Positions 8,075 to 63,095 of a DNA stretch of 64,000 nucleotides are shown here, one piece after another. This stretch comes from Plumapathes pennacea (taxonomy: Eukaryota > Cnidaria > Anthozoa > Antipatharia > Myriopathidae): positions 2,489,115 to 2,553,114 of the forward strand of contig OZ038465.1 in assembly GCA_964036295.1 (NCBI GenBank). The letters are read 5' to 3'. Both the position numbers and the translations under genes were made by a program. The notes beneath the pieces were generated by a model. The model did not search any database. It was not told the origin of the DNA and saw only the letters and a program-made list of their open reading frames with translations. How positions within the stretch are numbered: position 1 is the stretch's first letter; every line of letters begins with the position of its first letter.

Positions 8075-11000
8075 TTACTCAGCTTCGACCACATTGTACA
8101 CAGGTTCATCTGGGGTGTGGTTCTCCTGTGGGGGCCCTTCTCCTTCTCCCTGTTCAAGCACCTGGTATACTGGGTCCTTTGTACCATTAGTGTTATCACA
8201 AGGGTCCTCAAGAACCACATAATCCTGTCCTGTGTCTCTATTGTCGTCTTGATTTTCCCTATCTGTTGAAGGAATTGAAACAAAAAAATTAAGCAATTGC
8301 GCTGGCATGAGCTTGAATGTTCTCCAATAGGTATGGAACTTCCTTTATGTGAGATAAAAATTAATTTCATAATGTATCATCAGAAAATTGACTCTTGAAC
8401 CTCATGTAGCCACGCGTTCATTGACCATATTTGTCCACCCATTGGATATGAGCTGATAACCCATGTCCAAGGAACAATCAAAAGCCTATAAATCCAATAT
8501 CCGTGATCCAGTTTTTAATAATGCTTATTATCTAATTATATTGATATGCGAATCTGAGTTGTATCAGCACAGAAAGACAGTGATGTTTGACAATAATATC
8601 TTGATACTCGTAAAGACTTAATTCACCCTGTTTTGTCTAAATTGCACATTTTGAGACTATCCACGCATCATGCTAAAAGAAGTAGCAATTAGCGATGTGT
8701 TGCAAGCACCAAGAAGAATTCTGGCCGGGAACGTAACTAGCTTGCGTCGGATCCGAACCCAACACCAGCAGCTGCATAGCTTAGTTGTTTAATATATTTA
8801 GTTTGTTATTTCTTGCTCAGTTTATCAGTTAATTTGTTCTAAGTTTGTTTTACTAGATTAAGGCCCGAGCGAACGAACGCAACATGTTGGCACAACATCG
8901 CCCAACAATGTTACCCAATGAAAGAATGAATCGCAATTGCTGCTCTTACCGTCGCATGAAACATTCAGTGCACACAGTGTTGGACATTTTTTGGGTAACA
9001 TTGTTGGGCGATGTTGTGAACATGTTGCGTTCGTTTGCTCGGGCCCTTATAGTTAGTAAATTTTGTCTAGTTCGGATGCGACGTAAGCAGGCTAGGTCGT
9101 AACTGGCAGACCCCGTAGTGCGTCAGCTAAAACCTAAACGCAGGCCAATCTTAAACGTCTAAGTCATCACACCAGACTCGGTGAAAAAGAACACGACATT
9201 GTGTGCGGTGCTTTGCATTGAACGGTTCATTAGCGGGCTACTTGTTTGTCAACAAAATTTAAATAATCTGTATCTATTTGATGGGGAAAAATAGCGGAAC
9301 ATGCGTGCCAGACCTTTATGAAGAGCGCGGCTTTGCTTGAAGAGCGGCTGGTAATAATCTTCAGTTTTGATTTCTTGGGGTTTGCTGGTATCCAGAGCTT
9401 GGTAAATGGAAGGATCTTTGGCAGGTTCTCGGTGTTTCTCTCTTTGTAAGGATTCGTATGTTGGTTGGTCACTTGATGCTGCTCGTGTATTCTGGACGAT
9501 GGGTTGGTATGTGCTGTCTAGTTTCTCAGTGTATGCAGCGTTTACGTTCTCGCTCATCATTATATTGTCGACACCTCTTTCGTATATCGGATTGACTGCA
9601 AGGAAGGAGATGCGCATTCATATTTTTTTTTCTAGAAAACAGAATTGATTAGTTGTTATGTGGACTAATTAGCCCCGTAGCTGGCGGTTTTTAGTGGATG
9701 CTGGTGAAATACACGTTCGCCATGTTGCATTTCGAGAGGGGAGACTGCATATATTGCTTCACAGATTTGTGGACAGGATATAATTATTGGGAAAGTACTC
9801 CATTTTTAAAATATCAGGGTTTATAACCGTGGTTAGTCATGATGTATGTGTTAACAGCTTACTTGAGTTGTTTAGTTCATTTCCTTTCTTCGCTGCGTCT
9901 CTTTCACTGCAGTAAAAGCGTTGGGGAGTGGAGTTATTATACCAGGGGGCAATTCAATAAAGCATTTACAAGTGTATTTTACAAGCTGGACTTAATTCTT
10001 CTGCACGTTAAAACACGCTTCAATCCAATAACATGGCCAAATTCTGTTACAGTTTTGCATGTGAAACCGGTATCTGTAATATTTTGCAGACTTTAGCTTT
10101 ATTAGAGTCTGTTTAGTGGTGGTTGACTAATGGTCCAACATGTAAAATACACGTGTAAATGTTTATTGAATTGGCCCCAGCACTACTATACTCCTCGTGC
10201 ACTTCGTGAGTAACAATTAATAGCCGAGATGTTGCACTCTACCTTTTTCGTCGCTTTCTTGTCAGCAGAGATACGGAAACGCAGATCACAATGACAAAGC
10301 CGAGACCACCGACTACAGACAGAGCAATGGTGACGCTTAATTCGTTCCCTGCTGCACGTGTCCCCCTTTTTTCCGCCATTTTTCCTTTTATTGTCGACGT
10401 AGCAGCATGCGCAGTGGTATGGGCAGTGGATTGAATGGTAAGGTAATCGGTTTTAGTTAGTCCAGTAGTGGTAACAGAATGTTTAGTGTTACTTGCACTA
10501 AACGAATAACTTGAGGTAATATGAGTGCCAGTAGTCGTAGTTTCAAATTCCGAGGTGGTCACCATGGATGCAGTGTCTGGTAACCATGGCAGCAAAGCAA
10601 CAGTAGTGGTAGCAGCAAGATACAGCGTGCTGCTTGCGGTCGCAGTTATGGTTTTAGAATGTTCAGTGGAAGTTTCCGTAGATGGAGTGATTTCATCAGT
10701 AGAAACTAAAGACCGGGTGATAGCAGCGGTGGACTGGGTTGTGTTCCCAAAAAACATGACCTCTGACACAGAGCGGCTCATTGTTGTTGCCGATGCCTTA
10801 ACGGAAGGAAGGTCCCCTGGTGGTGCAAAATAATCAGTTAAATAGGCACCTGGAGGTCACACATGACCCAACATTTGTCTTTACATTTACCACGGCTATC
10901 ACACTGTACAATGCAAGCGATTGTCACTACAACACCGATCTTATTGGAAGCGTTGCTTTGTCATACTCACATTGTTTGCTTCCTGAGATCTTCACAAGAA

Positions 11001-17691: not shown

Positions 17692-19503
17692 TTATTCAGC
17701 TTCAAGCACATCGTATATTGGTTCGTTTGGCATGGTACTCTCCTGTGGGTACCATTTTCCTTCTCCTTGTTCAAGCACCTGGTATATTGGGCCCTCTGCC
17801 TCATCCATGTCCTCAGATGGATCCTCTAGTACCGCATACTCCCCTTCTGTGTCGTCTTCTCGACTTCCGTTATCTGGCGAGGAATATGAAGCAAAAATGA
17901 TTCCGTGCCGACCTTCAGGACGTCAAGTGTGACGTCGGACAATATGATAGGAAAATGTCTTCCGACGGTCCGCTTTTTGGAGCATCGACTCAATTTTTTA
18001 ACTCAAGATGCACATCTTGCTCTACGATGCGATCATATTATGATTGCTGTTGAGTAAGCATAGAGTGTCACTCCATTTCGATTCTCTAACAAGAACGAAT
18101 TCAATATAAACGATTGGCTGAGGGCAATATAAAAACAAAATGGATTGTGGGAGCCCTAGGCGATATAGCTGTAACACTAAGCCTGTTTGTCCTGCTCTTT
18201 TTTTTTCTGACTTAAAGTAATACGCTTTTTTGTACAAGTTACATTCAGTTACTACTTAGTATATTCAAAAGTTATCGACTAACTTTACAGCTGACGCATA
18301 ATGGTGACGTTCATGCCTGATTTGCAGTGTCAATATTCGTTCTGACGCATGGAAAAAAAAATCCACTTTACTGAGGACAAAACTACATCCTATTTGCTCC
18401 CCACATTTCTGGGCTAAGAAACCAGATACGGTGCCCTAACAATCTCCTATACTTTGTAAGTCCACTGTAGTTTGAACACTTACATCATTTTATATTGCCA
18501 AGTCAGGACAATTTGAACCACCGGGCCGGAAAAAATATTCATCGAGTTCAAGTCGCAGAAGGTGTTGGGAGATTGTGGTGACGTGTTTGCTTGGTCAGCT
18601 GATTGGAAACAGCGAATTCAGTTTGCCTGACAGTTTTAGAGGGGCCCTCTCAACCACAGTCCTTTGCGCGCCGAAATCCTTGATCCGCCATTTTTAGGGC
18701 CCCGAAAGTCGAAAGATGAATGCAATCAACTTTCATTCAATTCGTTAGAACAGTAGATAATTTTCTTTTGACCTAAAAGTGCTACTTGCCTATTTTTCTT
18801 TTGATTTATTACAGTTTTTTTTTCACACATTTCTAGATGTAAACACTAAAAACATTGAATGGCTGAGAAGGCCCCTTTAAGCTCAGTGAGAGATGCTTAC
18901 TTTTTAATCCCAGGCTATTTCGGCTTTCCTTGAAGAGAGGCTGATAGTGACTTTCCTGTATAAACTCCGGGCACTTGCTGGTATCCAGCGCTTGATAAAT
19001 TGACGGATCCTCACCGGGGTTGTTCTGTTTGTGTCTTTGAAGAGTTTCATATGTTGGTTGGTCACTCGTCGCTCGTGCGTTCTGTACAATTGGTTGGTAC
19101 GTGCTATCCTCCTCTTTGTATGCAGCATTAAGCTCCCCGTTTAACACCGTTAGATCGACACCTCTATCATACGTTGGGTTGGCTGAAAAATATAATACTA
19201 AACTCATAATTGACACTCTTTCCTCGCTATAGTATCTGTCAATCAAATAGAAATACAAACAACTCTTAGAAGGCTAATATGTATTAAGACTTACACTTTC
19301 TCAAGTGACCATCATGATGTTATTATAAATGAGAAATCAATGGAACAAGTTGGGAATTGTGATCAGATTTAGAACTTAGAAACACATGGAAACTGCGCCT
19401 TCAGTGCTGAGGCATTGCATTTAAAAGTTCTCAAGTTTTTTTAATTTTATTTTACCTCAGTCATTATTATTTTATTCTATCTTACCCTCCGTTGCCCTGA
19501 CTC

Positions 19504-19556
<53 letters not shown>

Positions 19557-21912
19557 TTATTATTTTTTGACTAACTCACTTTGATAGCTTTCGGCGGTTT
19601 CCTTTGCAGTGTTCCTTTCCCTGCTGACAAATGTGATATCACATTAATCAGTTCTTTGTGAATGCGTACAACAACTTATCCCAGTTGTCCCGAATAATAA
19701 ATAGGATTTCTGCCCGCGTTAAGATAATGACCGTAATATGTATGTTTATAAAGATCCTTTTACGTTACGGAATACAGTGGAGGACATAAGAACAAATGTA
19801 CCGCAATTTCTAAAGAAGAAAAATTAAGTTGCTGTCTCCTGCAAACTAGCTGTATTCCCATGACGCGAAAAGAATCTATATAATTTTCTTCCCTAAAATT
19901 CGGGCTAAACACAACCATACTGAATTCTGTTGCATAGTTACCTCTTCCGTCTTCTCTTCGTAAGCAAAACTGCGGATAGACAAATTGAAATAACAAGGAC
20001 CAGGGTCCCGAGAATGGACAGGGTTATGGTGACAGTATTTGCCTCTTTTACTTCTGTGTGTGGCTCCTGTTTCCGGCCGCCGGCTTTTTGCCCCTCCTTC
20101 CTCGATGTAGTGGGAGATTGAGTGATGATAACAGCTGATGTAGTGACTTTCACTGTAAAGCGAGCAGTAGGTTGCCTGGTAACGGTGGGCAATACATCTG
20201 CTGCCACAGATTGAGTGGCGTTTGTAATAGAACGCGTAGTTACAGAGGTACGTTGCCTAGTAACAGTGGGCAATGTATCGGCTGCCACATATTGAGTGGC
20301 GTTTGTAATAGAACGCGTAGTTACAGAGGTAGGTTGGATAACAGGCGATGTCTTTGTAGGTTCAACATCTGTTGCGTGTACCACGATGGAGGAGAAGTTC
20401 CCTAGATTCAAATAACGAATTAAGACGCAATCAGTTTCTTCATAGGGAATATAGCCTTATCTAGTATATATATGAAAAGTTTATTCTTTGAGAGAACTCA
20501 CAACATTCAAGATAATTATATTATCAGATGATGAACTTGAAGTTTTATACACCTCAGGTCACTTTCTAAAGCTACCTTCACCCAAAACACGATTTACTAT
20601 AATTATGTCCTGAAAAAAGCTACTAACACTTTCTGGTGTTTTAAACAACGGTAGCAAGTGATAACGGGTAGATACTGTCGCTATTAGCACAGATAACTAT
20701 ATCGATATATCTTTCCACGTACATTGTAACTAACTTTAACAGGAAGATGGTAAACTAACTCGACAGTCCTTGAGACGTTGTGGTATTCTTGAAATGGAAA
20801 CTAAGGATTTCTTTGTCTCACTCACACCATCTGTAAACTAGTACTAAACTGTTTATGTAGGTAAATCAATTTAATGTATTACAACGTAGCTCTACTTACA
20901 TTGTTTTTCCCCGGATATCTTGATGATAAACTGCGCATTCTTTTTCTTCCTTTTGGTACAATTGAAGTTGATCGATAGAATCGCTCCAACAAATGGATGT
21001 GTCGTGTCAAATGTATCCCACTGTCATAGAATCAAAGTTAAGAGAATTCAATAAATATCACGTCTGTCTTGACAACATCTGAGGTACTAACTTAATTTTT
21101 CATGCCGTTCAGTTTTGTCTGCCAGTATGTTACACATCTCCTCCTCGATTAGTAGACTACTTGTGGCCCGCTAGAAATTTGACACTTAAAAATGTTTGTG
21201 ATCGAGAAGGCAGCTAGTCTAATGAGTTAAGATAAAATTAAATTGTTTGCATTGTCATTCTGAATTGAAAAGCGTGTACTTTTAGCTTTGCTTACGATTT
21301 CAGCTTAAAATACATATTCTCGTAACCCTTATATACTTTTAAAAACATATATGAAGTGATGTAGTGAAATGAAATTTATAGTTTATAGCAGCTTTCATCT
21401 GAACAACCTATCAAAACCCGAGTTCTCCACATGATACGTCTCTGGTGCGAAGCTGAAGGATAAATTGTGGTTGGTCACTCTTGGGAGTGAAATGATTAAA
21501 CTTAAGTTGCGACAGCCTAATTTCCAGTATCTTGTAAGAAACGATAACGACATGCAGATGTTATGAATCAGCAGTTAATAGTGGTTAGGGAAATAATAAT
21601 TAAACGAATGCTATACCTCAAACACCGGTGATTTTTTGCCGTTCTTCTTCATAAACTTGAGCTTAAACATTTGCCTGTTATCCACAAACTGTTCTTCTTC
21701 TCCAAAAGACCCATTTTGGTGTTGAACAAGATATTTCACACGTGCTACGTCACAATTGATATTCTCATAGCCTCTAAGTTCGGTTCTATACTTATTTCCC
21801 CTACAGATTACAAGTCCTTTGAGTTTTTTCTTTCCCGTAGCTGAAATGTTAATGGAGGGGAGTTCCTTTGGTGAACAGGAATAACCAACACTCCAATTGT
21901 TTTGTGAACCTG

Positions 21913-21993
<81 letters not shown>

Positions 21994-22809
21994 TTAATTC
22001 TATTTCTTCAATAATATTAATAGCAACAGTGATAATAATAGTTATAATAAACTAGACTAATTTGAAAGACATGGATGGAACTTTGATAATCTGAAGAACG
22101 TGTTTCGTCAAAGAGTTTGTAAATTATCTATATCACTTTTATACGGCGTTCACTTATTCTTTGTTATCCATTGTTTTATCCTCATTTCTTAGCCATCAGT
22201 GTTGAACTAACCAGTATACGTTAATCTGAATTGGGGCACTGAGCACAGTATTGTTGTAAAAAGGAAATAATAGAATTCGACAAATGCTGTTAATCAGTTA
22301 TTTGTGTCAAACTTTCGTTTATTATGTATGATTTACTGCTAATACTCTTCTATTTCTATACATTAACATAATCATGCAGAAATATAACTCGTTGAATCAG
22401 TGTCACAAATCTGCCAAATGGTCGATTAAACCTCACGCGTCGATTGCCCACTGCGTTTAAATCATCGCGAGTTTATGTCACATTTTAGTGAACGCTTTGT
22501 GAACGTAAAATAATTTGTACGGAATGATTATTATGAACCCTACTTACTGTAGAACAACTGGCGAACGTCTTTATCTTTGACGCATTTTTTCCACTGAGCG
22601 ACGAAAGTAGGTGTATTCTTGTTACAGATACACATTGAGCATCCAAAGTTATGACATTCTCCCTTCATGTCTTCGCATCTTGAATTTGCCGGGCCCAGAT
22701 TCGTTAACAGATCGGGTCCATCTAACCTCCGAGTTACTCTAAACACATCCACAGTGTACGAGTAAGCTGTGACAACCAAAAGAGCCCAAAGGATGTAAAA
22801 GAAACTCAT
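17692..22809 (-). CDS. receptor gene B: type I membrane protein with multi-tyrosine (ITAM/NPxY) tail
   Basis: Coding exons on the minus strand: 22809-22548, 21909-21617, 21020-20900, 20401-19942, 19620-19580, 19182-18901, 17873-17692. They join to 546 aa with all phases matching gene A. Exon 1 starts MSFFYILWALLVV (signal peptide) and carries CSMCICNKNTPTFVAQWKKC. Exon 2 has no long ATG frame and was found from paralogy. It contains LVICRGNKYRT and VKYLVQHQNGSF. Exon 3 begins WDTFDTTHPFVGAI. Exon 4 has a 27-residue direct duplication in the Thr-rich stalk, then a helix near residues 349-372 and TKRRRKR. The tail carries NPTY, YQPI, YETL, YQAL, YQPL, YAVL, YQVL and YDVL. The first YxxI/YxxL pair is 12 residues apart, within the usual ITAM range. 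An (AAT)n run lies directly before exon 2. Confidence 0.8.
19505..19560. repeat. (ATCT)n microsatellite
   Basis: About 13 tandem copies of the tetranucleotide TCTA lie in the intron between exons 5 and 6 of gene B. Confidence 0.9.
20171..20332 (-). repeat. 81-bp direct duplication in the stalk of gene B
   Basis: Two 81-bp units (20171-20251 and 20252-20332) lie in tandem inside exon 4. Each encodes 27 residues with the core TTRSITNATQ followed by VAAD and LPTVTRQ. The units differ at few positions, so the duplication is fairly recent. It lengthens the Thr/Ser-rich, probably O-glycosylated stalk and adds an N-glycosylation sequon (NAT). Confidence 0.9.
21915..21990. repeat. (AAT)n microsatellite beside a splice acceptor
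   Basis: About 25 copies of AAT (TTA on the gene strand) end directly at the acceptor of exon 2 of gene B, forming its T-rich tract. Confidence 0.95.
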
Positions 22810-38167: not shown

Positions 38168-39822
38168 GTGGGAAAACCAGACAAAAGAAAGTTCAGATCG
38201 CAAAGGAGGAGGAAAAGAAAGGGTTTTTGTGGACCTGTCGGGGCAAATGAGCGCCAGAAACTCGACGAAAGCGACAAAAATGAAGTCCACGCGGCCACCA
38301 CTTCGACCACAACAAATCACGATGAAAGTAAGGAACTTCAATCCAGGCCAAACATGTCAGCCCAGAAGCTGCAGAATTCATCCTTCTCTACACACGAAGA
38401 GAAAGAAGGCGTATATACGCGAGCAACGTTCGATCGTTTGGGCCTTGGATCACGAAAAAGGCAGCGAGTTCCTGCACACGGCTACAAATTACAAGATACC
38501 GATCTCCTGAGTGACTGCATCTCTTCAGCAACAATCTGCAGCTCCTGCCGAAATCCCAAGTCAAAGTTGCAGTTATATTAGTGTGATTCCCAGAGGGAAG
38601 GTCTAGCCGAATCTCTGGTGCTGATATGTTCACTGTGTGACAAGGAGACCCCCCTGAAAACCAGCAAGAAGCTTGGTGGTGTTGGAGGGGGAGCTCATGA
38701 AGTCAACAGGAGGTCCGTGTTGGCTTCTCATAAGTTAGGATTGGCTGGACTTAATGACTTCTGCTCAAGGATGAACCTGTCACCACCTGTAACCAAGAAG
38801 GCTTACTATGATCATCTGATTCAAATAGAGAAGGCAGCTGTTGAAAATGCCACTGTGCAAATGCAAAATGCTGCTGACAGACTTTTCAAAAGAATAGAAT
38901 GGGAAAGTCCAGAGAACGTGGAGGATGAAGAAGGTACATGAATAGCAAAAGTAGCTGTTTCAGTTGATGGAACCTGGCAGAAAAGGGGCCACTCATCAAA
39001 GATTGGTGTTGTGTTTTGTGATTTCAATCCGTACAAGGGAAATCCTTGACTATGAGGTCAAGTCACTTGCCTGCCATGGGTGCAAGGCTAAGGAACACTT
39101 GGACAAAGATAGCAAAGAATACAGACGGTGGAGAGATGCTCATGAGGGAAAGTGCCAGATCAACCACACTGGGAGCTCAGAGAAAATGGAAGCTAGTGTA
39201 CAGCAGCTATTGAGATCTTCAGCCGAAGTGTCAAAACACGGCATCTGAAGTATGTACATCACATTTGTGGGAGATGGTGACAGCAGCTGCTTTGGAAGAG
39301 TGAGAGATGCCATGCAGAAACAATTTGGAGACTGATATGCCATCCAAAAAGAGGAATGTGTTGGCCATGTTCAGAAGAGGCTTGGTACTGCTCTGAGAAA
39401 ATACAAGAAGGATAGAAGAGGACAGAAGCTGGCAGATAGAAAGGGAGTTGGTGGAAAGGGGCAGTTGACAGATAAAGTCATTGATCGCATGCAGAACTAT
39501 TATGGCAAGGCAATCAGGAACAATAGTGGGGAACTAGAGCATATGAAGGAAAGCATTAAAGCTGTAGAGTGCCACATGATTGTAGATGAAAGTCTTCCTC
39601 TTGAGAAACAGCACCAGCACTGCCCCAAGGGAGAAGACACTTGGTGCAAGTTTTGGATTGACAAGCATCAAGGGACAGACACATCTGTATGATGATAGTA
39701 AGAGACTCCTGGAACTTTTTATGAAGGAACTACAGCCAATTTTCAAGAGGTCGTCAAATGATGACCTCTTGTCAAGATGCCTCAAGGGGGATTCACACAG
39801 AACGAAAATGAAAGTGCCATAA
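38168..39822 (+). pseudogene. Mutator-like transposase relic
   Basis: Across frames this reads as the Mutator-like transposase family that is widespread in cnidarian genomes. In order: a zinc-knuckle-like CSLCDKE, FCSRMNLSPPVTKKAYYDHL, VSVDGTWQKRGHSS (DxTW motif with the first catalytic Asp), a CHGC plus GKCQINHTGSSEKME block, FVGDGDSSCFGRV (second Asp region) and EECVGHVQKRLG. It is broken by a TAG at about 38580, a TGA near 38940, a frameshift near 39040 and further stops near 39246 and 39334. It is therefore inactive. It lies between genes D and E in the opposite orientation. The family call is strong, but the domain accession (I recall PF20700) should be checked. Confidence 0.85.
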
Positions 39823-48500: not shown

Positions 48501-51500
48501 TGCTTGTCCTTTCTGAATAAGTATCTGAGTTTAACACAAAACGGCGTCTGAAGCTCCCGATTTGCTTTCAAGTGCTGTTCCCTTTGCGGAGCCGTTTCTT
48601 CGGCACGCTTCCCGCGTTCATGATGCTGTCGGAAAAAAACATGTTTGTCGTCTTTTGGCGATGTTCGATCGTTTCACGATTTCGCCTTGCCCGTGCCTGT
48701 TCCCTTCTCTTTTGAAGACGAGCTTCGTGAGACCGTTCTGTTTCACGTTTTCCAGTTTTTTCAAATTCATTTTCGTGAGGAACGAATTGCCTTATAAGGA
48801 GTAGAATAGTTTTCCGTTAGTCTTTACATGAAGTGCTGTCCGCCCCTTGACTGACTGACTGACTTACTGACAGACGAACATTCACTGGATCAAATGCTGT
48901 CACGGTTAATAACCCCTCACTTCGCTCGGGGGATAAATGTCTCCAAGTATAATAGTGTTATGAAATTTCAGGAGTAAGTTTTTAAACGACATGAGAGCGC
49001 ACAGACGGTCCGGAACGGCAAACAGCCGGGACCTTGGCCCGTTGCCCGGCTATTAGCTACATCCCTGATAAATTGAAAGCGAGGAATGTAACACTAGACT
49101 TGTTTATGTACAATATTATTGTTCACAGCATGTTCAGTCATTTGTGACTAACAAACTCAATGTTCAAGACTATTTCGGTGTATTTTTCATTTCTAGTATA
49201 CAATACCACTGCGAAGCAAAGGCTACTTGATCGAATGGAAGAAATATTTCAACATGCACTGTACGATAAGCCGAAGCATTTTGACAACTGTCACACTCGT
49301 GCGGAGCATAACACATGTAATATATTCACAGAGATGCATTCGTCGAGTCTTAAGCCCTGAGAATAAATAGTCTCAAAAACGGATATACTTTTGGCGAAAA
49401 AACTTTACAAAACAGCTACAGTATGTAGGAGGCACCAGATGTCATTAACAGTGTAAAGCATAAATCATCATTGTTTACGGCTAAAGTTCATCATGGCTTT
49501 GGTGTTCCGTATTCAGCCTGATATCTTCCCAGAAGTATTTCGTGTCGCCACAGATAGTTCGTCGAGACTAAATAATTAGCGGCGACAAAGTTATTTGCAA
49601 CCTTGTAGCGGTAGCCAACATAATCGAATCAATCAAACATTTTTTGCGGCTATGACGGTGAACTTAAGAACGCAAGCCAACCGTGCATGTTCCACAAAGC
49701 CAAACGGTGTTGAGTTTGGATGGGATACAGATAACTTTATACACAAGCATTAACGTACAATTCAATCGACTACGTCTCAAGTTGTTCGCGAAGTCACCTT
49801 ACGTCATCACATACCACGTGGCAATGTGAACCAATCACCGTGTGCTGATTCGTAACCCAGAAAAAAACTAACACGAAGATAAAGACACGCTGTGCAATCC
49901 TAAGCTCGTTGGGGCGTAGCAACTAAATTTGAAAGATTTCAAAGGTATTTTCAGTCTCATTACATGGATAAGTTCATTTAGTGTAACAAAATAAATTTCA
50001 CTGACCTTCATGTGGTAACTCCTTGTGATGCGGGTTCCTGTGTCTGACAAGGGGCTCGTAATTACTTTGTTGCTGGACAGGCGCGGGTTTGTCAGGATTC
50101 AGAGCTTGATAAATGGACGGATTCTGGGGAAGTTGTCTCTGTTTATTTCCTCTCAGAGCTTCGTATGTCGGCAGGCCGCTTGCTCTTGTGTTTTGTACTA
50201 TCGGCTGGTAGTTCGTGTTTTCTTCCGTATTTTGATTGCTTTGAGCAGTCGTCATAATGTTGTCTGGACCTCTCCCATAAGTGGGGTTTTCTGTATGAAA
50301 ACATAGTAGCCCGGTTCTTACTAACACTCACCATCTTTGCCTAGCGAGTCGCAGCGATAGACCACGAGGGGAGAGAGATTGAAATAATGAGGGCTATAAA
50401 TATGGAGATGATGAACGAAGGTGTAAAAGAATAGGGTGTTACGATGTTACTCTTCCGTGGACTGAATATAGCTCACCTGAATCTTCAACATCTTTGCACG
50501 GCGTGTTCCTTTCATTTGAAAAACAACAAGGCGATAAATCAGTCACACATATTCAACTAGTTCCTAGAATTAATAATACACAATTTATAGAGCCCGAGGG
50601 TGAGTGTGGGTTTTTGTGTAAAACTCCACAGCTCTTTCTGTGTTGATTCAGCTGGGTTATCCCAAAATATTTGCTAGCGAAAGAAAAACCTCACTCTAAA
50701 CCAAAAAAAACAAAAACAAAACAAAACAAAACAAAGAAAACAAAGCAAAGAATGATTTCCCCTGAATATTCAATATTGATTAGATTCAGGTGGTAGTTAC
50801 ATCTACAGTTTCTCACGATCTCGGATCGGCGTTTACTCCGTTCAGCCAAAGCAATGTGCAACTGGTTTCACTATAAAAAAGAGACCCGAATGGACCAACC
50901 AGACCCGAATGATGCCAAACTTGTTGTTTAGGCCAATTAAATAAAAAAATAGGAACCATACGAGTACCCTCAGCAATCATCCAAATACAGTTATCTTTCA
51001 TTCCCTCCTTCCTTCCTAATCCTTTCTTTATCCGTCTGTCTGTCTGAAACATCCTTCCCTCCTTCGCAGAATTATATTTCTTCCATGTTTCTTCTTCTCT
51101 CAACCTGTCTATTGTAATAAATCGTTCTAGTTTTGCCAAACTCACCGTTTTCTGCGCCTTCTGATCATAAACCATGTGAAGATGCAAATTAATATGACAG
51201 CGACAATACTTCCGATCAAGATCGCTGCAATAGTCACAGCCTTGGTTTCTTTTTGACCAGACGTGCGATTTTCTGTACGTCTTGATGTTGTGGCAAACCC
51301 ATTTGGTGTAGTTCTTGACGTTATTGCAGGAGTTGGCGATGTTCCACTGGATTTTTTCTCTGTCGTAACTGTTTTTGGTATCGTGGTTGGAATAGAATTA
51401 CTCCCTGGGTATAAATAAAATCATACTCGATAGTGGCTCAGCTGTACAAATTTGTCATTTTACTCAAAGTAAACTCGGACAGCTGGGTGATCCTCACGAA

Positions 51501-54500
51501 TATATAAAACAATGTAAATTAACCATAGAAGACGAAAAGAATTATACTCACAGGTTTTCTTTCCAGCTGTTTTAAATAGTAAGTGTCCTTCGTAGCTACC
51601 GCACAAAACACTAATATTTACAATCGCCCCGAGAAATTGATTGTCAATCTTGGAGCACTGTCAAGAAAACAAAAAGCAAACTCAGTGTAAATATTATACA
51701 CAATGAATTAAATTAAATAAATGAAGTAAGCGGTGAATGCTGCTGTGGTACGGTGTGGACCGTTTGGTAAGAATAATTATCCATGCACTCAAAACTCTCT
51801 TGACTCGTTATATGAGCACGGAACAAGTTAGCGTCAACTTTTAAACAAGAAAAGTTCAAGTTTAAAGTTCTGTATTTAAAGGTAGAGGTTCTTGCTTATG
51901 TCAATAAGTCATGAAAGACTGTTGAGGTTGAAACAGTCCTCTGCTCACTGCCCTTGGCCGTCTTCAGGAATAGTGTCAAGATAAAACTACCTTTTCCACA
52001 TAAGTAAAACTAGCCTGGCCTACCATAACTGCATAAAAGAGCATCCTTTTAACACCTCTTTCTAGATGAGATCAAACCCATACCCAATAGTACAGTCCGG
52101 GGCTCATGGTCCCTGCTCCTTCCAGCTTCAATTTAATAAACGTTTCAGGTGTTCTATTTATCCACTTTTCTGTTCCCTCGTCCAGATAGTGTTTGCTTGT
52201 CACAGAACAGTTGTAATGCTGCCAGCTTGACTGTATAGTCTTGTTCCCTTGGCAATTAAAATATAACAAATTCTTTGTTCCATCCCCGCATGCAATGTCA
52301 ACGGTCCTAATTGTACGAGAGCATGCAACATTCCAGCCATTTGGGCCTTTCAGATTGAGGGAAGCTGATGGACCGAAAAGTACACGTAAATACATGCATT
52401 GGTTGATCCGTGAACAAATACGAACAAAAACAGAACTTAAAGTATACTGAGCTAAAGTTAAGGTTTTAGCTTAAGTTCAAAGCGGCAATTTAAATTGATT
52501 AATTGCTTCTTAGGGTTTCTGGCAATCAATACTACAGAGTGAACCGAGAGGGGAATTAGTCCTTCTGGAACAGCTAGGCCTTGTTTTTACAACTTCTTTT
52601 AATCCTTCCGCTGAGTTTATAATCACAAATTCTTTAATTTCTTTCTTCATTGTCAACTAAGTACTCTAAAATGCATGGTCAAGCAGCTAATCGGTACAAT
52701 TTACTCTCTATGCTTTTCCTTGTGCAACAAATTTAAAGTGACGGGATGTTTATTTCCCTGGATCGATCAAGACCCTTTCATCCCAAAAATATGCAAATTA
52801 TAAACCGAGAAGTTCGTCCCTCTTACATGAGGCATGGGTCTCAAGCCGGAAATACTACAAAAAGTATATCAACGGCAACGCTACGCCATTTTGAATTTGA
52901 GTAGTAAGTTTTCATTAATTCGGATCTTGACATCAGGTCCTGAGATCCCTATAAAATGTCACGTTACATTCGCAAAGTTTCCCTTGGCCAAACGAAACTG
53001 AAACTATACAGCTGCTTATAACGATTTCCAAAAATATTATAATCATCAACTCTATGAGGCATAAACTAAACCGTAGTGGAAGTGGGTAGCAATGGCGCAT
53101 TTCGGTTACCCACAAAAATGTTACAACTAACAACAATAGCCGTGGTTACACACGGCCCTTTTCCCGTGAGTTTTGGCACTTTTACCACGGGAAACATTTT
53201 TTCGGTGTGTAACCGCGATTTCCCGAGCTAAATTTCCCGAGGGCATTCCCCATGGATACATCAGAAAGAACAAAAGGAAAGCCCGTGACAGTTCCCGAGC
53301 AAGTTACCTAAGGTTTTCTGATTCCCACGGCAAATACACCAATCCGCGAGCAGCGCGGATAGTGACTAAAAGAACACACGAGTGACCACGAGTGACCACG
53401 AGTGACCACGAATGACCACGAGTGACCACGAATGACCACGAGTGACCACGAATGACCATGAATGACCACGAGTGACCACGAATGACCACGAGTGACCACG
53501 AATGACTACGAGTCAAAATAAGCTCCTCACGTGACTGTAACGTCATTTTATTGTCATTTTAAATTTAAAACGCAATATCATGCACCCATGATAAAGTGTA
53601 AAAATTTCACTAGCGTCATTTTAAAAAACAAACACTTTGAAGAAAACGCCGACCACAAGGCGTAAAGTACACACAAATATGTCCCTTGCGTGACGAATCA
53701 CGTGTCAGCGTCGGCTGTAGACAACGTGACACAGCGTGCTGTATTTAACTCAAACTCGTGACCCTACCGAACAGATTTGGCTCTTTTAAAAGTCCCCGTC
53801 CACACTACGCCGGATAAATTTGAAAACACAACTTTCACTCTGAAAACGCAAGAAATGTTTTCCGTCCACACTGGAAAACGGATAAAATGTTTCCGGGCCC
53901 AAATGTATTGTTATTGCTCTACAAACGTCCGGACAATCTTTGAAACCGCTTGACGTGACCACGTGAGTCAGAGTTTTCGAAAAGTTCCGTTTTCAAAATG
54001 TTTTTCGTCCACACCAAAACGCAAAGCCGGCGTTTTCAAATTTATCCACTTTGAAGAGCGTTTTCGAAAAGTTCCGTTTTCGTGGACAATTTATCCAGAT
54101 TAGTGTGGACGGTAGGCCTAACCGTAAGAATAAAGTTGCGTTTTCAAATTTATCCGGCGTAGTGTGGACGGGGCCTAATTAAGTCGTGGGAATTGCTCAC
54201 TAAATTCACATGGCGTGGGAACCTACATATAATTGGCTGATCGCAGAGATAAGGCTGCTGAGATGTCAAAAAAATTTGCATTTCTGGTCCTCTTGCCATG
54301 GAAGTCCGGATAAAAAAAACGGAAAGATTTTACTCCGAAAAAGTACGACCAAAGTAAAACAACGAAAAGACCTAACACTGGAGTGAAGGACGTGGAGGTT
54401 ATTACTATCGGCGACGTGGAAAGTAAATAGGGAACCGGCGGAAGAACAGAATTTCAGTAACTGAACAGAAACGTGAGAAAGGTGCTGCAGTCAGACGCCG

Positions 54501-56003
54501 AAAGTGATGATTCTGAATCACTACCAAATGCTGCACAGCAAAGTCCCGGCAGTCGATTGTATTTAGTAAAACTTTCCAGACTCGGGGACACCCGATAAGC
54601 CGGTCATATTACAGCTTATGTTTAAAACAGTATATCAATAAAATTGATGTCACAGTCACGCGAAGGACTTTTTAAGTCCTTAAATTAAAATTTAACTCTT
54701 GGGGCCAGTTGTTCAAAGTGTGAATAGTGGATAAATGTTAAAATTTAGCCTTATAGTATCAACTGGATAAGAATTTCTCCTGTGGATAGCGCTATCCGCT
54801 CTTTGAACAACTGGGCCCTGGTCGTTTGTAGACTGTTCTGCAGTGAGTTGGTAATGACGTCACTGTCACGCTATTAATACTTTACGCCTTGTGGTCGGCG
54901 TTTTCTTCAAAGATTTTGTTTTACACTTCACGAGCGAGTGATTTTACATTTTATATTTAAATGATATTAAAATGACGTCACAGTCGAATGAGGAGCTTAT
55001 TTTGACTCATGGTCACTCATGGTCACTCGTATTCACTCGTGGTCATTCGTGGTCACTCGTGGTCACTTGTGGTCACTCGTGGTCACTTGTGGTCACTCGT
55101 GGTCATTCGTGGTCACTCGTGGTCACTCGTGGTCACTCGTGGTCACTCGTGGTCACTCGTGTGTTCTTTTAGTCACTATCAGCAGCGCGTGACAGTTCAG
55201 GAAATCGGTAAATCCTAAACAACTTCACGCCGGAGAGACATGCCTCAGTTTGCCACGAATTTAACTCTACAACTTATCCGAACTTACGGCTGGATTCCGC
55301 GCATCGCTGTGAATATCATTTCACAGATCTCATTGACCGTTTGGCTGGAATTTTTCCTCGCGAATGCTAAAATCGTGCTTGCTTTCTCAAGGAACTCAAT
55401 CCCCGATCCCGGTGAAGCTCTGTACAACGGGTTCTTTTTTAACAGAGAAAGAAACGCCGGTGTTGAAGCAGTCGTGTTTTCTCGACTCTTTGCGGTTCGG
55501 ATTTTGCCGTGGGAATTGTCGTTACAGTTTGACCGGAAAAATCTCGGGCACCGGAAATTCCCAAGATAAAATTCCTGTGGTCAATTTACCCTCGGGATTT
55601 ACTAATACCACGGTGTGTGTAACCACAGCTATTATAAAATCCTATAAATGCACACATAACAACGAGTATATATTTTCATACACTGAGCATGGAATAGAGA
55701 ATTATTTAAACAAAAGCACAGATACACTGTACCTTGGAATCCAAGATCCCTTTGTAATATGGCGTCAGTGACACACTTATTCCGTTGAAATATATATGTT
55801 TGTCCCGACGAGCACTCGCAGCTACGGGGCTCGCTGCCTATGTCACTGGCGTTGAACGACCGACACGGCGCTGTCGCGTTCGGCTTTGTGAACACGTCCT
55901 GACTGTCTTGTTTACGAGTTACCGTTACGTTTTCCACCGAATAAGCAGAGGCTGAGATCAAAGAGTAAACCATAAGAACTGTTGACAATATTTGGAAATC
56001 CAT
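45548..56003 (-). CDS. receptor gene E: type I membrane protein with complete multi-tyrosine tail
   Basis: Coding exons on the minus strand: 56003-55733, 52364-52084, 51657-51552, 51404-51146, 50508-50477, 50290-50006, 45732-45548. They join to 472 aa with phases as in A-D. Exon 1 starts MDFQILSTVLMVYSL and carries RSCECSSGQTYIFQRNKC. Exon 2 has YFNCQGNKT and KHYLDEGTEKW. Exon 3 begins with Cys (CSKIDNQFLGAI) where the paralogues have Trp. Exon 4 gives a Thr-rich stalk, a helix near residues 277-300 and IRRRRKR. The tail has NPTY, YQPI, YEAL, YQAL, YEPL, YAVL, YQVL and YNVL, with the first pair 11 residues apart. It thus has the most classical ITAM-like tail among the complete copies. The last intron (4.3 kb) and intron 1 (3.4 kb) are swollen by repeats. 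A downstream satellite adjoins the 3' end. Confidence 0.8.
45778..45871. repeat. (GAT/GAC)n trinucleotide run
   Basis: An imperfect run of GAC and GAT triplets in the last intron of gene E, just upstream of its final exon. Confidence 0.9.
46260..49870. repeat. dispersed repeats in the last intron of gene E
   Basis: The block 46260-46640 is the inverted counterpart of 30353-30650, and 49080-49870 is the inverted counterpart of 28740-29480. Both pairs match over several hundred bases by eye. Between them, 47351-47442 is a hairpin (CTCCATTCAATGTTGG facing CCAACATTGAATGG) with C-rich and G-rich outer arms. The rest, including 47450-49080, holds no supported gene. Confidence 0.65.
53793..54176. 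mobile_element. nested MITE
   Basis: CCCCGTCCACACTACGCCGG at the left is mirrored by CCGGCGTAGTGTGGACGGGG at the right, followed inward by mirrored ATAAATTTGAAAAC. Internal words such as TTCGAAAAGTTCCGTTTTC are also repeated. It lies inside the larger 53138-55629 element. Confidence 0.9.
54702..54819. mobile_element. short MITE
   Basis: GGGCCAGTTGTTCAAAG at the left is mirrored by CTTTGAACAACTGGGCCC at the right, with ATAGTGGATAAA and CTGTGGATAGCG inside. It is about 118 bp and non-coding. Confidence 0.85.
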
Positions 56004-57596: not shown

Positions 57597-60500
57597 TCAG
57601 TTAATGATTCCATCTTTCACGACATTGTACAAATATTGATCAAGCTCCTGATAAACAGGCTCCTCCACATAAGTGCCTACAGAGAGTCTACTTGCGGTCT
57701 GAGATATTGGTCCTATATTCGAGCTCGGAAAGCACCAAGCCTCCTCGTACACTTCCACAGACGTACACCCTGTTGGATCTGTAACAAAAGAAAAAAAAAA
57801 AAAAAAAAGTGGTAGAAAGTGGAACCTTCCGTAACCGACCACACTTCGTTCGGCTATAATTTGTCGCTTACGGGAATTTCTCACCATGGGAGGTCTAAAT
57901 GAGATCCAGCTTTGAACCACATCCAGTGTCAAAAAATGCAGTTTTAGTGAGTGAATAACACTTTGAGTTTTAAGAAATCAATTCAACTTTGTGTCCTGGT
58001 GCAAGTTACATTTGTAATGTTAGTGTTTTGTCCGGTCCGGTTTCTGCAAGGAAATTAGTCCTTGCGCAGAAAATTGCTCTCTGGGAGCATAGAGTGGTCG
58101 CTTACTGGAGGTGTTTCTGTGTTTTCGCTAAGATTGATATATTCCAGGGTGAGTCCTTATTTTTCGTTCCCACGGTGTAGTCTCGCACAATCATCTTCCA
58201 ATAAACCTCGCCCTCTGAACCAATACCGGAAATACACAAACTCGCCTGACAAAATATATCTACACGAGGAAGAAATCAAAAGTCCCAGAACTGTACGCAC
58301 CTATATCAATGTATTTCTAGTCAAAATGATTGTTTATTTTTGACTTAGCTTCTGGACATACGCTTAGCCAGTGTGCAGCTACATGCACCCATAATGTATT
58401 ACAGTTTATGACCCATCAAATATTTCCTCCCGCGCGTGATTGGTAGAATCGTGACACGTGACCGAATAACGTCCGCTCGTGAGCGGACGTTATCAGCTAA
58501 TAACCCCCGCCTGGCGAACTAACGCTGTTTATTGACAATATCCGAACACAGTTCTATTTATTTAGTCACAAAAACCATTACAAGATAACTAGTGAGGAGG
58601 ACATCAATTTAGTGGTCGAAAAAGCAGTTCCAGAAAGCACTAAAAAGCTTCTCACAATTTCCGCGCCGTTATTTGCGCTGCGAGAGGAAATATTTGAAGG
58701 ATAATAAAGACAATAAACTACTATTTGCTTCGGAAATATGCAAAGATAATTGTCCTTGGACATTATCTGTTCCTCGAAGCTCACAGTTGCCCTCGAGCTT
58801 CGCTCTCGGGCAACTGTCCACTTCGGAACAGATAATATCCTCGGACAATTATCCGTGCATATTTCCTCGCCAAAAGTAGTTTATTGTTTATATAACACTG
58901 TAGCACTGACCTGTTATCAATAAGACGGGGTTGCTGCTTTTGCGATCCTCCTTTGCATTCGAGTTCAATTTGGGGTCCTGCAAAGACTGTTTCAATCAGC
59001 GTTACACGATGAAGGATATTACTAAACTGACACTTGTATAGAACGCAAACAAGATAAATTAAATGATAATAATATAATACCTTTTAATGAGATTAATACT
59101 TTTAGATACAGTTACAGCTTACGTTATGACAAGTTAGTAGTTCTATATCTACGGAAAGACCGTTACGTGAAGGAATTGAACCTGGGGACAAGCTGGGACA
59201 GAAACAGCCCTCTCACAGACTACTACATCTCCTTAACCAATCGCATTGTTTAAAGTATCGCGTCTTGATCAATCGCACTATGGGTAAATGCAGCACAATT
59301 AAATACCCTACCATCGCCTTTTATATACATTTTAGTGTGGCTGTCCCGCGGGGTGTAGAGTGTGGTAAGCATGGCGTGTAGCACCAGCTACAGCACGGGT
59401 TGCAAGTGAAGTTGCGCCATATGAGTTGTTATATGTAGATTTGAATTAGGAAACATTTGTACTCACTGATTGCGGCATGCTCGTTGCTGGCTTGAGGACT
59501 TCATAGGCTTGTGGGTCTATTGTGTTCTGAACAATCTGTTCATAAGTTCCGCTTGAATCTGAGACGCTAGTTGTTGACTTGGAGCTGCGCATTATGGTAT
59601 CAGGGCCCCGCTCATACATGGGGTTGGCTGAAGAAATGGACATTCAGATTATTTTATTATTTGTAAAAAATGCCCATGCCAAGGGTCAAAGTACACCATG
59701 TAAAAATATTAACTGTTCTTACTATAGTTGTTATAATAACAATAACTAAGATAGAGCCGTTTTCGGATGACTGTCGAAAACCAAAACCAAAGTAATCACA
59801 CAAGCCAATCACAGAGCCTGAGAGAAAACAGTTCAGCCAATTGGAAGCCAAAGTAATTTGTGTTTGGTCTTGCGTTTGGTTTTACTTTCCAATCAGCAGT
59901 GCGAGTACACGCCATCGCTTGCGTGAGAAGTGTTTGGTTTTGGTTTTGGTTTTGTTCCTGATTGGCTGAGCATGCTGACAAACTCGTGTGGACCAATCCG
60001 AAAGCGAAGCAAACGCAAAACCAAAGCAATCACACGATTACTTTCGACAGTCATCCGAAAACCGCTCTATTATTCAGACTAACATAGGCTACTTATTTAA
60101 AAGTTATTATATTATTTTATTGGGCTGTTATTCATCTATTGTATTTGTTTTATCAACGTTTTTCCTTTCTCTGGCCGTGTATCTATACTTTTAGTGTGTA
60201 TTAAATTTAAACACCTTTCATCTAACCGTATATATTTTGCTTATTTTACTTACCTGAGCCACAATGTAGCTTGATTTCTGAGTCTGCTTGAGTGATTGCG
60301 CTGGAAGTAAATTAAATGCGTATCAGCCGAATTTGAAGATTGGAGTACAAGGTGCAATCATGCATTTTTCTGAACTAAGGTTTTATTGGCATTTCTGTAT
60401 TCAATGATTAGTCTACGAGCACTTTATCATTTAACAACACAACGATGTACACAGTGTCACAAATGAGTGTAATCTTTCTCCATAAAACTATCATGATATG

Positions 60501-63095
60501 TGAAATTCTGTGAATTACTATTATCTGCTTTGAGCAATTTACAGCTTTCACGTATCTTATGTTGCTTGAATATTATTTTGTGTTACGCCTTTTCGACGAA
60601 TCAATCAGTCAATGAATAAATGAGGCAAAAACAGGCAAGGAATTAATGAACAAGACACAAATTAGCGGAATGATTGGCACAAAACGGGTAAAAAAAAGTA
60701 AAGTATCGTTATTTATACACGGTAAGTAATTCAGCAGAGCTGGTGGGGCCGTGTTTTAAACTCAACGTAAATCTGTTAAAAATCCCAACTGGTCGAAGGC
60801 TAACCAGTTGGCTATTTACATAACGTGGCCGAGGATTTGAACGCGGGGCTACCGTGTTACAAATTCAGTTAGTGCTCAGAGCGGGACTTGAACCTGGGAC
60901 CTCCGGATATCAAGTCCGGCGCCCTAACCACTCGACCACGCTGCCTCGTTGAATGAATCAATGAATGAGGACAAGGAAGGTGGACAAGAGGGAGTGCGAG
61001 AGTAAACAAAAGGTAAATGTCATGGAAAGTGAATGCGGAGTGAGAAAGTGAATTGAACAGGTGACTTGTCAGAAAATAAACATGACTCAGAAATTTCAAG
61101 TGAAAGATCAACTAGCAGAGAGATTGTTACAGTAAATAGAGTGCACCAGCGAGGACTGTAGGTTCCTTGTAGTACGTTATCCTCTGCCCCATGTTGATAT
61201 CTGCTTGACTATTATGCGTACATAAACACAAACAATATAAAACTAACCTTTCCTGTTTTCCTCTTCGTATCGAGATAATCACAAGTACAACCAGTGTGAC
61301 TGCAACTAAGGCGCCAAAAAGAGCAATAAGAGCAACGATGTTCACTCTGCTCTCAGCCCGTTTTCTGTCCGCTGTGTCCGCTGTGTCCGCTGTGTCTTCT
61401 GTTTCTTCCTCGACTTCAACTTCACTATCCGGCTTTTCTATTTTTACTTGCACGCCTCCTCTTTGTTCATCTTCGTCTTTCGTGTGCTTTACTGTGGATG
61501 TCGTTGATTGAGTTGTGGTAGTTGCCTTGGTTGGTGTTGTATTACAGTCTTCTCTGCTGTGTAGTATGTCTCTTTCAGCGGATGGGATGGTGGATGGAAC
61601 AACTGGCAGCATAGACTTTGTATCTATTTTAGCTGAATGACAAGAACATAAAAGCAATTTATTTGTTTCATGCCCAGACCAACCAAAACTAGACGCGCAT
61701 TGAAATTTTACTCACTCACCCAACTATTGCTATCTCGTTCACTCATAATCATTCACTTATCACCGAATCACTATTTACTGTCTCGTGCATTTCTCAGTTC
61801 ACATGTACACTAATATTTTCTCTGTTGCATTCATCGCCTTTTTCATCTATCCATCTATACTGATTAAAATCACAATTACTTATTAGTCATCAATCACAAA
61901 TTAGTTACATTTATCAGTGTAACAAAAGCCTTTTCAAATTCCAGACCCCAGTCACAGGTACATTCCTTGGACAGTTGTCATCCACAGCCTGTTTCATTCA
62001 CCCATTCACTACACTCCCTTTCTCACTTTTTCCACGAAGCAATGGAAAGACTCAGCAGTCCATCAATCCATCCTTCTCTCATTATTCGCACGGCTCTCAT
62101 TGTCACACGGCTCTTTTCTCTGTTCAGAAAGGTGGTAGCCGCAATAAACACATTTTTCATTCACTCAGAGAGATTCTGGATTATGTTTGTGTCATACACT
62201 CACATGTTGCTACACGTGATCCATGTATCTTTAGAAGCAGACAAGATTCTAGTCCTTTCCGGCCGCATAGCTCGTTGAACCAGCACTTGATACCAACAGA
62301 CACGATGAAGCCAGGATACAACGACGTCAAATTACTACCCCACTAAAGGGGGAGCAAAACAAATCAGCATGCAAACAAATCATTTAATACGTATAACTTG
62401 GATCGACTGAGAGTCGATGTGTGAAAGGTCAGCTGGAAGCCGTAAAAGAATTTGAAACTGACGTTTCGAACGCTAGTGCATCGTCTGAGCAAATAGCTCA
62501 AATTCTTTCACGGTGTCCAGCTTTCACAAATCAACCCTCGGTCAATTCAAGTTATTATACGTATTTCTCCACGCCAACGCAGTCAATCTGTAGTTCTCTT
62601 TAGAGCTGGTTTTCCATTAAATAATTTAATAATCTATTGATTTAGCCATCACGTCTGTCCATTTATCTATTAGTCAATACTGATGGTAAAATGAAGGGAA
62701 CAGTGAATCCTAAAATCAATATCATAAACGACAGCATTTACGTTTGTACTTGGGGAATGTTGGAATAGGTGGCATTGTTGTATTTTTGGACGAGAAACAC
62801 TAATATGGGCTTTGACAAAAAATACGTGGGTACTTCACCTGTAATGATAAATTGGACATAAAGAATATATCTTTAATTCCTTCGTCCATCCTCCAAATTC
62901 CATCGTTGGAAAGGTACTTTATGTTAGATCTGATTAGTCGGCACTCGCGTATTTCAAGATTCGTCCTTTTTCTCGTTGTATTTTTAGGGCAAAAAAGGAT
63001 TTTCCTTGTATCCTCCACCTTCTCGTGCAGAAGGGGAAGATTTGGTCCGTGACACGAAGAAGTCCAAGGATGCTTGGTTAGGTGAAAGTGACAAC
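57597..63095 (-). CDS. receptor gene F: divergent paralogue, 5' end not found
   Basis: Exons found on the minus strand: 63095-62839 (exon-2 type), 61632-61249 (stalk and transmembrane), 60300-60254 (47-nt micro-exon), 59627-59467 (tail), 58977-58911 (extra exon) and 57778-57597 (terminal). Phases fit at each junction I could test. The exon-2 match is shown by LFCPKNTTRKR and IKYLSN. No signal-peptide exon or GAI exon was found. The stalk is acidic and carries a TADTADTAD triplet, followed by the helix IVALIALFGALVAVTLVVLV. The tail begins NPMY and has YEQI and YEVL only nine residues apart, a canonical ITAM spacing. The terminal exon has YEEA, YQEL and YNVV. It may start beyond the window or be a partly decayed copy. 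A SINE and a MITE lie in its introns. Confidence 0.6.
58400..58880. mobile_element. inverted-repeat element related to the 2337-5712 repeat
   Basis: The segment 58500-58690 matches 5510-5715 almost throughout (for example CTGGCGAACTAACGCTGTTT). Next to it, 58725-58870 forms an imperfect hairpin in which GGAAATATGCAAAGATAATTG faces CAATTATCCGTGCATATTTCC, matching 2340-2400. It lies between the last two exons of gene F. Confidence 0.7.
59751..60070. mobile_element. MITE-like element in gene F
   Basis: ATAGAGCCGTTTTCGGATGA at the left is mirrored by TCATCCGAAAACCGCTCTAT at the right, with GACTGTCGAAA also paired inward. Multiple ACCAAAACCAAAG-like words lie inside. It sits in the intron between the micro-exon and the tail exon of gene F. 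Confidence 0.85.
60825..60957 (-). mobile_element. tRNA-derived SINE
   Basis: On the minus strand a tRNA-like head starts at about 60957 (GCAGCGTGGTCGAGTGGTTA, A-box-like), with a D-arm, an anticodon-like stem-loop CCGGACTTGATATCCGG (TGA in the loop, as in serine tRNA), and a B-box GGTTCAAGTCCC. It continues into a non-tRNA body ending GGTAGCCCCGCGTTC. The acceptor arms do not pair well, so it is a SINE, not a tRNA gene. The copy at 1-140 is the same family. It is located in an intron of gene F. Confidence 0.75.
62390..62620. repeat. dispersed repeat, longer copy of 13926-14060
   Basis: Contains ACTTGGATCGACTGAGAGTC, then GACGTTTCGAACGCTAGTGC and AGTTCTCTTTAGAGCTGG. The first and last words are shared with 13926-14060. 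It separates the exon-2-like and stalk exons of gene F. Confidence 0.55.

Follow-up and report, generated by a model that had tools for sequence, protein, structure and literature searches.

Repeated YxxL/I/V motifs in a cytoplasmic tail are a feature of vertebrate receptors with immunoreceptor tyrosine-based activation or inhibition motifs (ITAMs and ITIMs) and of adaptors carrying multiple phosphotyrosines. Endocytic receptors of the LDL receptor type are laid out as a Ser/Thr stalk, a transmembrane (TM) helix and an NPxY motif. In Hydractinia, Alr1 and Alr2 are linked type I receptors with immunoglobulin (Ig)-like ectodomains and long tails bearing phosphorylation-type motifs (excerpts of PMC7563517 and PMC12065747); the same excerpts name cnidarian allorecognition genes in Hydractinia only and none in anthozoans, and tandem expansion of coral receptor families is already known in general (PMC10236652, in excerpt). 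The Drosophila protein Shavenoid (sha/kojak), an effector of epidermal hair formation, is described as insect- and arthropod-specific in an excerpt of PMC9375228. Here, a tandem array of receptor genes that shares features with each of these systems is described from a 64,000-nucleotide stretch of DNA (the window; C4:2489115-2553114), part of a searched genome of 290 Mb in 24 contigs, of which contig C4 makes up 27.2 Mb.

Read as a whole, the array probably, on balance, encodes diversified recognition receptors that signal via tyrosine phosphorylation. The faster divergence of exons 1 and 2 than of exon 7, the birth of copies in tandem and the loss of tyrosines in two genes (C and D) fit receptors that diversify while their signaling stays constant. 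The Hydractinia Alr proteins are the closest analog in layout; membership of the Alr family is not claimed, and whereas Alr1 and Alr2 have Ig-like ectodomains, the array has no Ig family by sequence. Compared with vertebrate ITAM/ITIM receptors, the tyrosine motifs are mostly more widely spaced and more numerous per chain, and the ectodomain is unrelated; as in those systems, SYK- and SHP-2-class genes are found in the same genome. The order of stalk, TM helix and NPxY is common to LDL receptor-type proteins, but no LDLR ectodomain repeats were found in a Pfam scan of genes A-E and there are many additional tyrosine motifs. With fly Shavenoid the array shares the Sha_B_N domain of exon 1; where the fly protein acts in hair formation, the present genes occur both in tandem and dispersed, and they encode in addition a second, unrecognized module and multi-tyrosine tails. 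No description of a Sha_B_N multi-tyrosine receptor family was found in listings of open-access literature. An anthozoan origin is plausible for the host; if it is a cnidarian, such a family would contradict the arthropod restriction at the level of the domain, and the presence of Sha_B_N in non-arthropod receptors would suggest an older, different origin for Shavenoid. An exon-defined gene set, a recognizable N-terminal domain and a testable link to SYK and SHP-2 could make the question of anthozoan recognition approachable.

Organization of the array

Minus-strand models of genes A-E were built from stop-to-stop open reading frames and splice sites. Each has seven exons, and the spliced products are 605, 547, 461, 466 and 472 amino acids (aa) long. 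All introns are GT-AG, the intron phases are 1,0,1,2,1,1 in all five genes, and every coding sequence is divisible by three and has a single terminal stop. The original prediction, made from the DNA of the window, had proposed head-to-tail minus-strand receptor genes with a common exon plan, five of them joining in multiples of three with this phase series; the spliced models bear out both proposals, and the predicted end coordinates proved exact, the stop codon of gene A ending at position 8075 and the exon 2 acceptor of gene F lying at position 63095. The genes, and three exons that exemplify the ectodomain, lie at the following window positions.

8075..16333, minus strand: gene A, 605 aa; exons 16333-16006, 12602-12325, 11094-10971, 10816-10243, 9906-9863, 9595-9314, 8262-8075
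17692..22809, minus strand: gene B, 547 aa; exons 22809-22548, 21909-21617, 21020-20900, 20401-19942, 19623-19580, 19182-18901, 17873-17692
25189..31033, minus strand: gene C, 461 aa; exons 31033-30745, 28410-28073, 27297-27153, 26660-26495, 26408-26362, 26021-25740, 25307-25189
32933..37528, minus strand: gene D, 466 aa; exons 37528-37258, 36511-36231, 35658-35550, 34435-34150, 33834-33803, 33715-33467, 33105-32933
45548..56003, minus strand: gene E, 472 aa; exons 56003-55733, 52364-52084, 51657-51552, 51404-51146, 50508-50477, 50290-50006, 45732-45548
57597..63095, minus strand: gene F, exons 2-7; 63095-62839, 62342-62204, 61632-61248, 60300-60254, 59627-~59467, 57778-57597
30745..31033, minus strand: exon 1 of gene C, signal peptide and Sha_B_N module (Pfam)
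36231..36511, minus strand: exon 2 of gene D, second Cys module, unrecognized in Pfam and PDB searches
35550..35658, minus strand: exon 3 of gene D, W...GxIxxI..C...K..G ('GAI') module (11-gene alignment)

In genes A-E, exon 1 encodes a signal peptide and a Cys module, exon 2 a second Cys module and exon 3 a short W...GxI...C...K..G module. Exon 4 encodes a Ser/Thr stalk with the TM helix, exon 5 is a micro-exon of 32-47 nt, and exons 6 and 7 are tail exons. The Ser/Thr-rich stalk varies in length from 30 to 161 aa, and the single TM helix is followed by basic residues. The five genes are predicted to encode type I (single-pass) membrane receptors. The tandem arrangement, single-pass topology, Ser/Thr stalk, TM helix and multi-tyrosine tails agree with the clustered, diversified receptors that had been proposed. 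The tail exons depart from the common plan in two genes: an early stop in gene C removes the final tyrosine motif, and exon 6 of gene D starts later, without the exon 6 NPxY.

The array had been put at six genes, whereas at least eight were counted once exons found beyond the window (those of genes F-H) were included. Exon 1 of gene F lies at C4:2553252-2553567, and phases 1,0,1,2,1 are kept over its exons 1-6; a trial join of exons 6 and 7 produced stops, and the end of exon 6 (~59467) is only approximate. Beyond gene F come genes G and H, whose exons 1-3 occupy extended positions 70385-67535 and 80619-77165, respectively (adding 2489114 gives the C4 position); in each, only these three exons were joined, and similar tail exons were seen singly. 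Exon 2 of gene G (C4:2557279-2557835) carries an acidic and Ser/Thr-rich insert of ~90-100 aa between two conserved cysteines. Weak sites in the gene models are the exon 6 donor of gene A (AAAG/GTCTGG), the exon 5 acceptors in D and E, which are poor in pyrimidines, and several exon 2 donors that depart from the consensus.

The ectodomain

By profile search, exon 1 is identified as Sha_B_N (PF23328), the N-terminal domain of Shavenoid isoform B, for which the curated Pfam cut-off is 24.4 bits. When the exons were searched alone, those of genes A (30.1 bits) and C (31.2 bits) passed, those of genes B (E 1.8e-4, 22.1 bits) and D (E 9.4e-4, 19.8 bits) fell under the cut-off and that of gene E gave no Sha_B_N hit; in the genome search, gene B reached 24.8 bits and gene F passed with 26.8 bits. 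Across the family, PF23328 matched 12 of 13 exon 1 sequences (E<=1) and none of 26 controls (13 reversed and 13 shuffled, E<=10). The unmatched member is presumably gene E, because its exon gave no hit alone. All 13 exons agree at six positions (R, D and four Cys). The exon 1 profile had no PDB sequence match, and the predicted model of exon 1 from gene C (mean pLDDT, the predicted local distance difference test score, of 68.9, with blocks of ten residues scoring 70-82 from residue 41 onward) had no Foldseek or VIA fold match.

Exons 2 and 3 together make up the second extracellular module, in which Cys, Trp and Gly are conserved. The exon 3 part has invariant C, K and G and near-invariant W and G over 11 genes. 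When exons 2 and 3 of these 11 genes were aligned and searched, there was no PDB sequence match at E<=10, and Pfam returned three single-member matches only (best E 0.0076). Apart from Sha_B_N, the Pfam scan of the A-E ectodomains, in which LDLR repeats were absent, contained only a viral capsid match below threshold. Ig domains were absent from the Pfam and PDB sequence matches, consistent at the sequence level with the non-Ig counterpart of the Alr complex that had been suggested; as this was judged by sequence, exons 2-3 may hide an Ig-like or other known fold.

A wholly unknown ectodomain, as a candidate description, was rejected on the Sha_B_N match of exon 1. The original prediction had called the ectodomain unfamiliar and had proposed profile searches and structure prediction for it. 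Unfamiliarity holds for exons 2-3, which have no convincing Pfam or PDB match, and fails for exon 1, which the profile search placed in PF23328; structure prediction gave no fold match for exon 1, and the AlphaFold model of exon 2 alone was too poor to use (pLDDT 46.9).

The cytoplasmic tails

The tails of genes A-E, which are 153-180 residues long, contain 7, 7, 4, 6 and 7 YxxL/I/V motifs, respectively, counts that 0, 0, 0, 1 and 0 of 2000 shuffles reached. All five genes share five invariant tyrosines in the tail. Genes B, D and E each have a single strict ITAM (YxxL/I-x6-12-YxxL/I); it is missing from A, where the spacing is off by one residue, and from C, through motif loss. The ITIM consensus ([VILS]xYxx[LVI]) is matched in A, B, C and E, always through S at -2, and has no match in D; an ITSM-type (immunoreceptor tyrosine-based switch motif) TxYxxI is present in D and E. 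NPxY occurs in all five full models (NPIY in A, NPTY in B and E) and opens exon 6 in all eight array genes but D, whose sole NPxY is in exon 7.

Canonical ITAMs throughout were rejected as a description, with strict spacing in B, D and E only. The ITAM-like tails of the original prediction stood as multi-tyrosine YxxL/I/V tails and failed as strict ITAMs in A and C; since strict spacing is found in three of the five genes only, 'multi-site SH2-docking tail' would fit better than 'ITAM'. The exon 6 search had one hit in another public assembly, P0002 (134 aa), which is 50% identical to gene E exon 6 over 94 aa and retains NPTY, YQPI, YQAL, YQSL and YQPL, i.e., all five sites.

The combined stalk, TM helix and tail, encoded by exons 4-7 (8075-10816 in A and 45548-51404 in E), also matched TMEM51 (PF15345, cut-off 25.5 bits), with 28.8 bits for gene A, 29.2 for E, 24.9 for B and 16.5 for D; gene C gave no match at E<=0.1, and all five proteins matched at E<=10. 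When the flanks were shuffled and the TM helix kept, one of five controls (gene E) passed with 26.2 bits, and one control passed for DUF6479 (30.5 vs 25.4 bits); the real sequences of A-E were all below cut-off for TMEM154, Glycophorin and DUF6479. Because these controls passed, the TMEM51 match is not relied on, but a distant relation of stalk, TM helix and tail to TMEM51 is possible.

Divergence between array genes

Over the ten pairs of genes A-E, identity was 24-43% for exon 1, 23-40% for exon 2, 29-57% for exon 3, 24-65% for exon 6 and 51-63% for exon 7. The identity of exon 6 was at least that of exon 1 in all ten pairs (equal in two). In exon 7, nonsynonymous divergence (dN) was 0.24-0.30 and synonymous divergence (dS) 0.44-1.83, and dN was lower than dS in every pair, which indicates purifying selection on exon 7 as coding sequence. 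In exons 1-2, dN was higher than in exon 7 (0.52-1.15); the D/E pair of exon 1 stands out, with dN of 0.59 and dS of 0.60.

Dispersed family members on contig C4

A genome-wide search with PF23328 gave 15 matches, 14 of them on C4; the 11 counted as over the cut-off of 24.4 bits scored from 23.8 (24.4 with neighbors) to 38.2 bits. Array genes A, B, C, F and G were found in this search, and D, E and H were missed. At least eight dispersed loci on C4 have exon 1 evidence, at 1.37 Mb, at 4.28, 4.30 and 4.32 Mb, at 4.87, 4.88 and 4.90 Mb, and at 9.77 Mb; the 4.90 Mb locus is under the Pfam cut-off (19.1 bits) and matches the family exon 1 profile at E 4.5e-6. Two weaker PF23328 places, at 7.86 Mb and on C1, were not counted. 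Among the frames searched, exon 3 had a counterpart at six of the eight loci, four with E 1.6e-4 to 2.1e-3 and two weak (1.37 Mb, E 0.019; 4.87 Mb, E 0.16), and none at 4.28 or 4.90 Mb. Judged by these matches, the ectodomain plan recurs in dispersed paralogs.

The 9.77 Mb gene has phases 1,0,1,2,1, a Thr/Ser stalk, a TM helix and a 50-nt micro-exon; its tail carries YQHL, YTTL, YQGL and YQSL as its four YxxL sites, without a strict ITAM. Its intron 4 (L025, C4:9.769 Mb) is GC-AG and retains the phase 2 junction of the family. Downstream of exon 3, unspliced open frames at 4.87 and 4.88 Mb carry several YxxL/I/V motifs. The 4.87 Mb frame (L023, C4:4866000-4875999, from ~8722) has eight sites and includes repeated EPEYQ[IV]LEEGPSND units, and the 4.88 Mb frame begins NPTY. 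A further multi-tyrosine frame (YWVLEGP, YQCL, YQTL) at C4:4.893 Mb (L027 1389-1955, plus strand), upstream of a Sha_B_N-like exon at 4491, is perhaps the tail of an adjoining gene. A multi-tyrosine tail was not found in the stretches examined at 1.37, 4.28, 4.30, 4.32 and 4.90 Mb, which end 465 bases past exon 3 at 1.37 Mb and 645 bases past it at 4.32 Mb; the 4.30 Mb locus has a stalk/TM-like frame without a tail.

Away from C4, the exon 1 query from the 9.77 Mb gene found weak places on C3 (E 0.054, with two stops), C5 (E 0.12) and C1 (E 4.9). The exon 1 search had one hit in another public assembly, P0001, which shares 75% identity with the 4.87 Mb gene over 113 aa. In the exon 1 tree, eight of 11 inner branches are open and the array genes are not a single clade (three label changes), though a single origin for them is not ruled out; A, B and C group at 86/91, and stars mark two pairs, L023/P0001 and L020/L021. 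The exon 6 search matched the array alone, at seven places, and the exon 7 search matched five. A whole-protein search with the five-gene alignment scored 7995 candidates, none at E<=0.001, and the exact coding pattern PVYNVLE occurs once in the genome, in gene E, a result that tests that heptapeptide alone.

Candidate signaling partners

A search of the same genome for SH2 domains gave 56 matches, and three of the sites with neighboring matches were followed, orthology being taken from the best PDB hit with no tree. At C5:26.162 Mb, two adjacent SH2 domains have SYK as best PDB hit (E 5.8e-45 and 5.1e-33), then ZAP-70, and downstream frames contain tyrosine-kinase motifs; on these hits, the site is assigned to a SYK/ZAP-70-class tandem-SH2 kinase gene. 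Of the two SH2 pieces at C9:14.486 Mb, the one that was searched has SHP-2 as best PDB hit (PTPN11, 1.1e-30), which assigns the site, by the same measure, to a gene for a SHP-2-like protein. A further neighboring SH2 pair lies at C2:27.115 Mb. Among invertebrates, according to excerpts of PMC5978004, only carriers of CARD-CC/Bcl10 have Syk/Zap70 homologs with ITAM-binding SH2 domains of vertebrate-like type, and cnidarians are named there as Bcl10-containing.

Proposed function and alternative explanations

In the proposed mechanism, ligation of the ectodomain would cluster the receptor at the cell surface, and Src-family kinases would phosphorylate the tail tyrosines. The phosphorylated tyrosines would then dock SH2 proteins: a SYK/ZAP-70-class kinase would lead to activation, and SHP-2 to inhibition or scaffolding. 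One signaling route could thereby be kept while the ligands that are bound diversify, be they microbes, symbionts or neighboring cells, in a form of innate recognition. Expression at the surface, clustering by ligand, phosphorylation by Src-family kinases, docking of SH2 proteins and the binding of diverse ligands are each predictions, and an immune or allorecognition function is plausible for the array.

Several observations weigh against receptors of this kind. Only two of the five array exon 1 sequences pass the Pfam cut-off alone, and one shuffled control reached E 0.0023 with a different Pfam family, so the weaker single matches prove little by themselves. Exon 3 of the ectodomain is more conserved than exon 6 of the tail in five of the ten pairs, and positive selection is not claimed, since many exon pairs have saturated or undefined dS. 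The classical ITAM distance is found in three of 26 neighboring YxxL/I/V pairs in A-E, with Tyr-Tyr distances of 15-51. Outside the array, the stalk-to-tail query from the 9.77 Mb gene recovers itself only and the array exon 6 profile scores that gene at E 0.25; the dispersed tails, unmatched by sequence score, resemble those of the array in motifs, their placement and intron phase only. Finally, YxxL/I/V and NPxY can also be endocytic sorting signals, and the sole named domain is that of a fly protein that organizes actin, for which reasons an endocytic and a Shavenoid-like morphogenetic explanation are both possible.

It is possible, if unlikely, that the array encodes endocytic or scavenger receptors, in which NPxY and YxxL/I/V would act as clathrin-adaptor sorting signals for ligand uptake without phosphotyrosine signaling. 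NPxY at the start of exon 6 in seven of the eight array genes is in keeping with this, as is the best PDB sequence match of the profile, the membrane-proximal stretch of the LDL receptor (E 0.0015); that match is weak, however, and falls on stalk, TM and juxtamembrane positions, and the 4-7 sites, five invariant tyrosines and multi-site relatives seem to exceed the one or two signals that uptake needs. A family of morphogenesis or cell-surface-protrusion proteins, akin in function to fly Shavenoid and with tails linked to actin regulators, is rather unlikely. Shavenoid organizes trichome actin (excerpts of PMC9375228 and PMC9331688), and its Sha_B_N domain is present in exon 1, but the comparison is confined to this ~60-residue N-terminal domain, and tandem diversification with ectodomain divergence would be unusual for a structural component.

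It is doubtful that the array governs colony fusion as a non-Ig equivalent of the Hydractinia Alr allorecognition locus. Clustered, diversified receptors with tyrosine tails would suit such a locus, and candidate allorecognition genes of Hydractinia are reported to carry ITIM and ITAM/hemITAM motifs (PMC12065747, in excerpt); the paralogs, however, are old, with dS high or undefined in many pairs, and the dispersed copies at 1.4-9.8 Mb favor a broad family over one histocompatibility locus. Decaying duplicates of little function are very improbable: gene C stops early and has lost tyrosines, gene D has lost an NPxY, and retroelement and Mutator debris lies within the locus, but five spliced frames are open, exon 7 is under purifying selection and exon 6 is retained in another assembly (P0002). 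Beyond the preferred reading of the array as diversified receptors that signal through tyrosine phosphorylation, a more far-reaching proposal is unlikely: Shavenoid-domain receptors would be an ancient animal family, turned in cnidarians into a recognition system that is germline-diversified and coupled to SYK/SHP-2, with the array as an anthozoan non-Ig histocompatibility or immune complex.

Other features of the window

Two open frames of 302 and 175 aa at 3571-5497 (plus strand) have no Pfam match at E<=0.01. Broken retroelement pieces lie in intron 1 of gene A (14206-15903, minus strand), one with a reverse transcriptase match under the cut-off, and a Mutator-like transposase (PF20700) extends over three frames between genes D and E (38582-39692, plus strand). 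A galactosyltransferase single open frame (PF01762, E 4.1e-36) adjoins the array at 371-1426 (plus strand).

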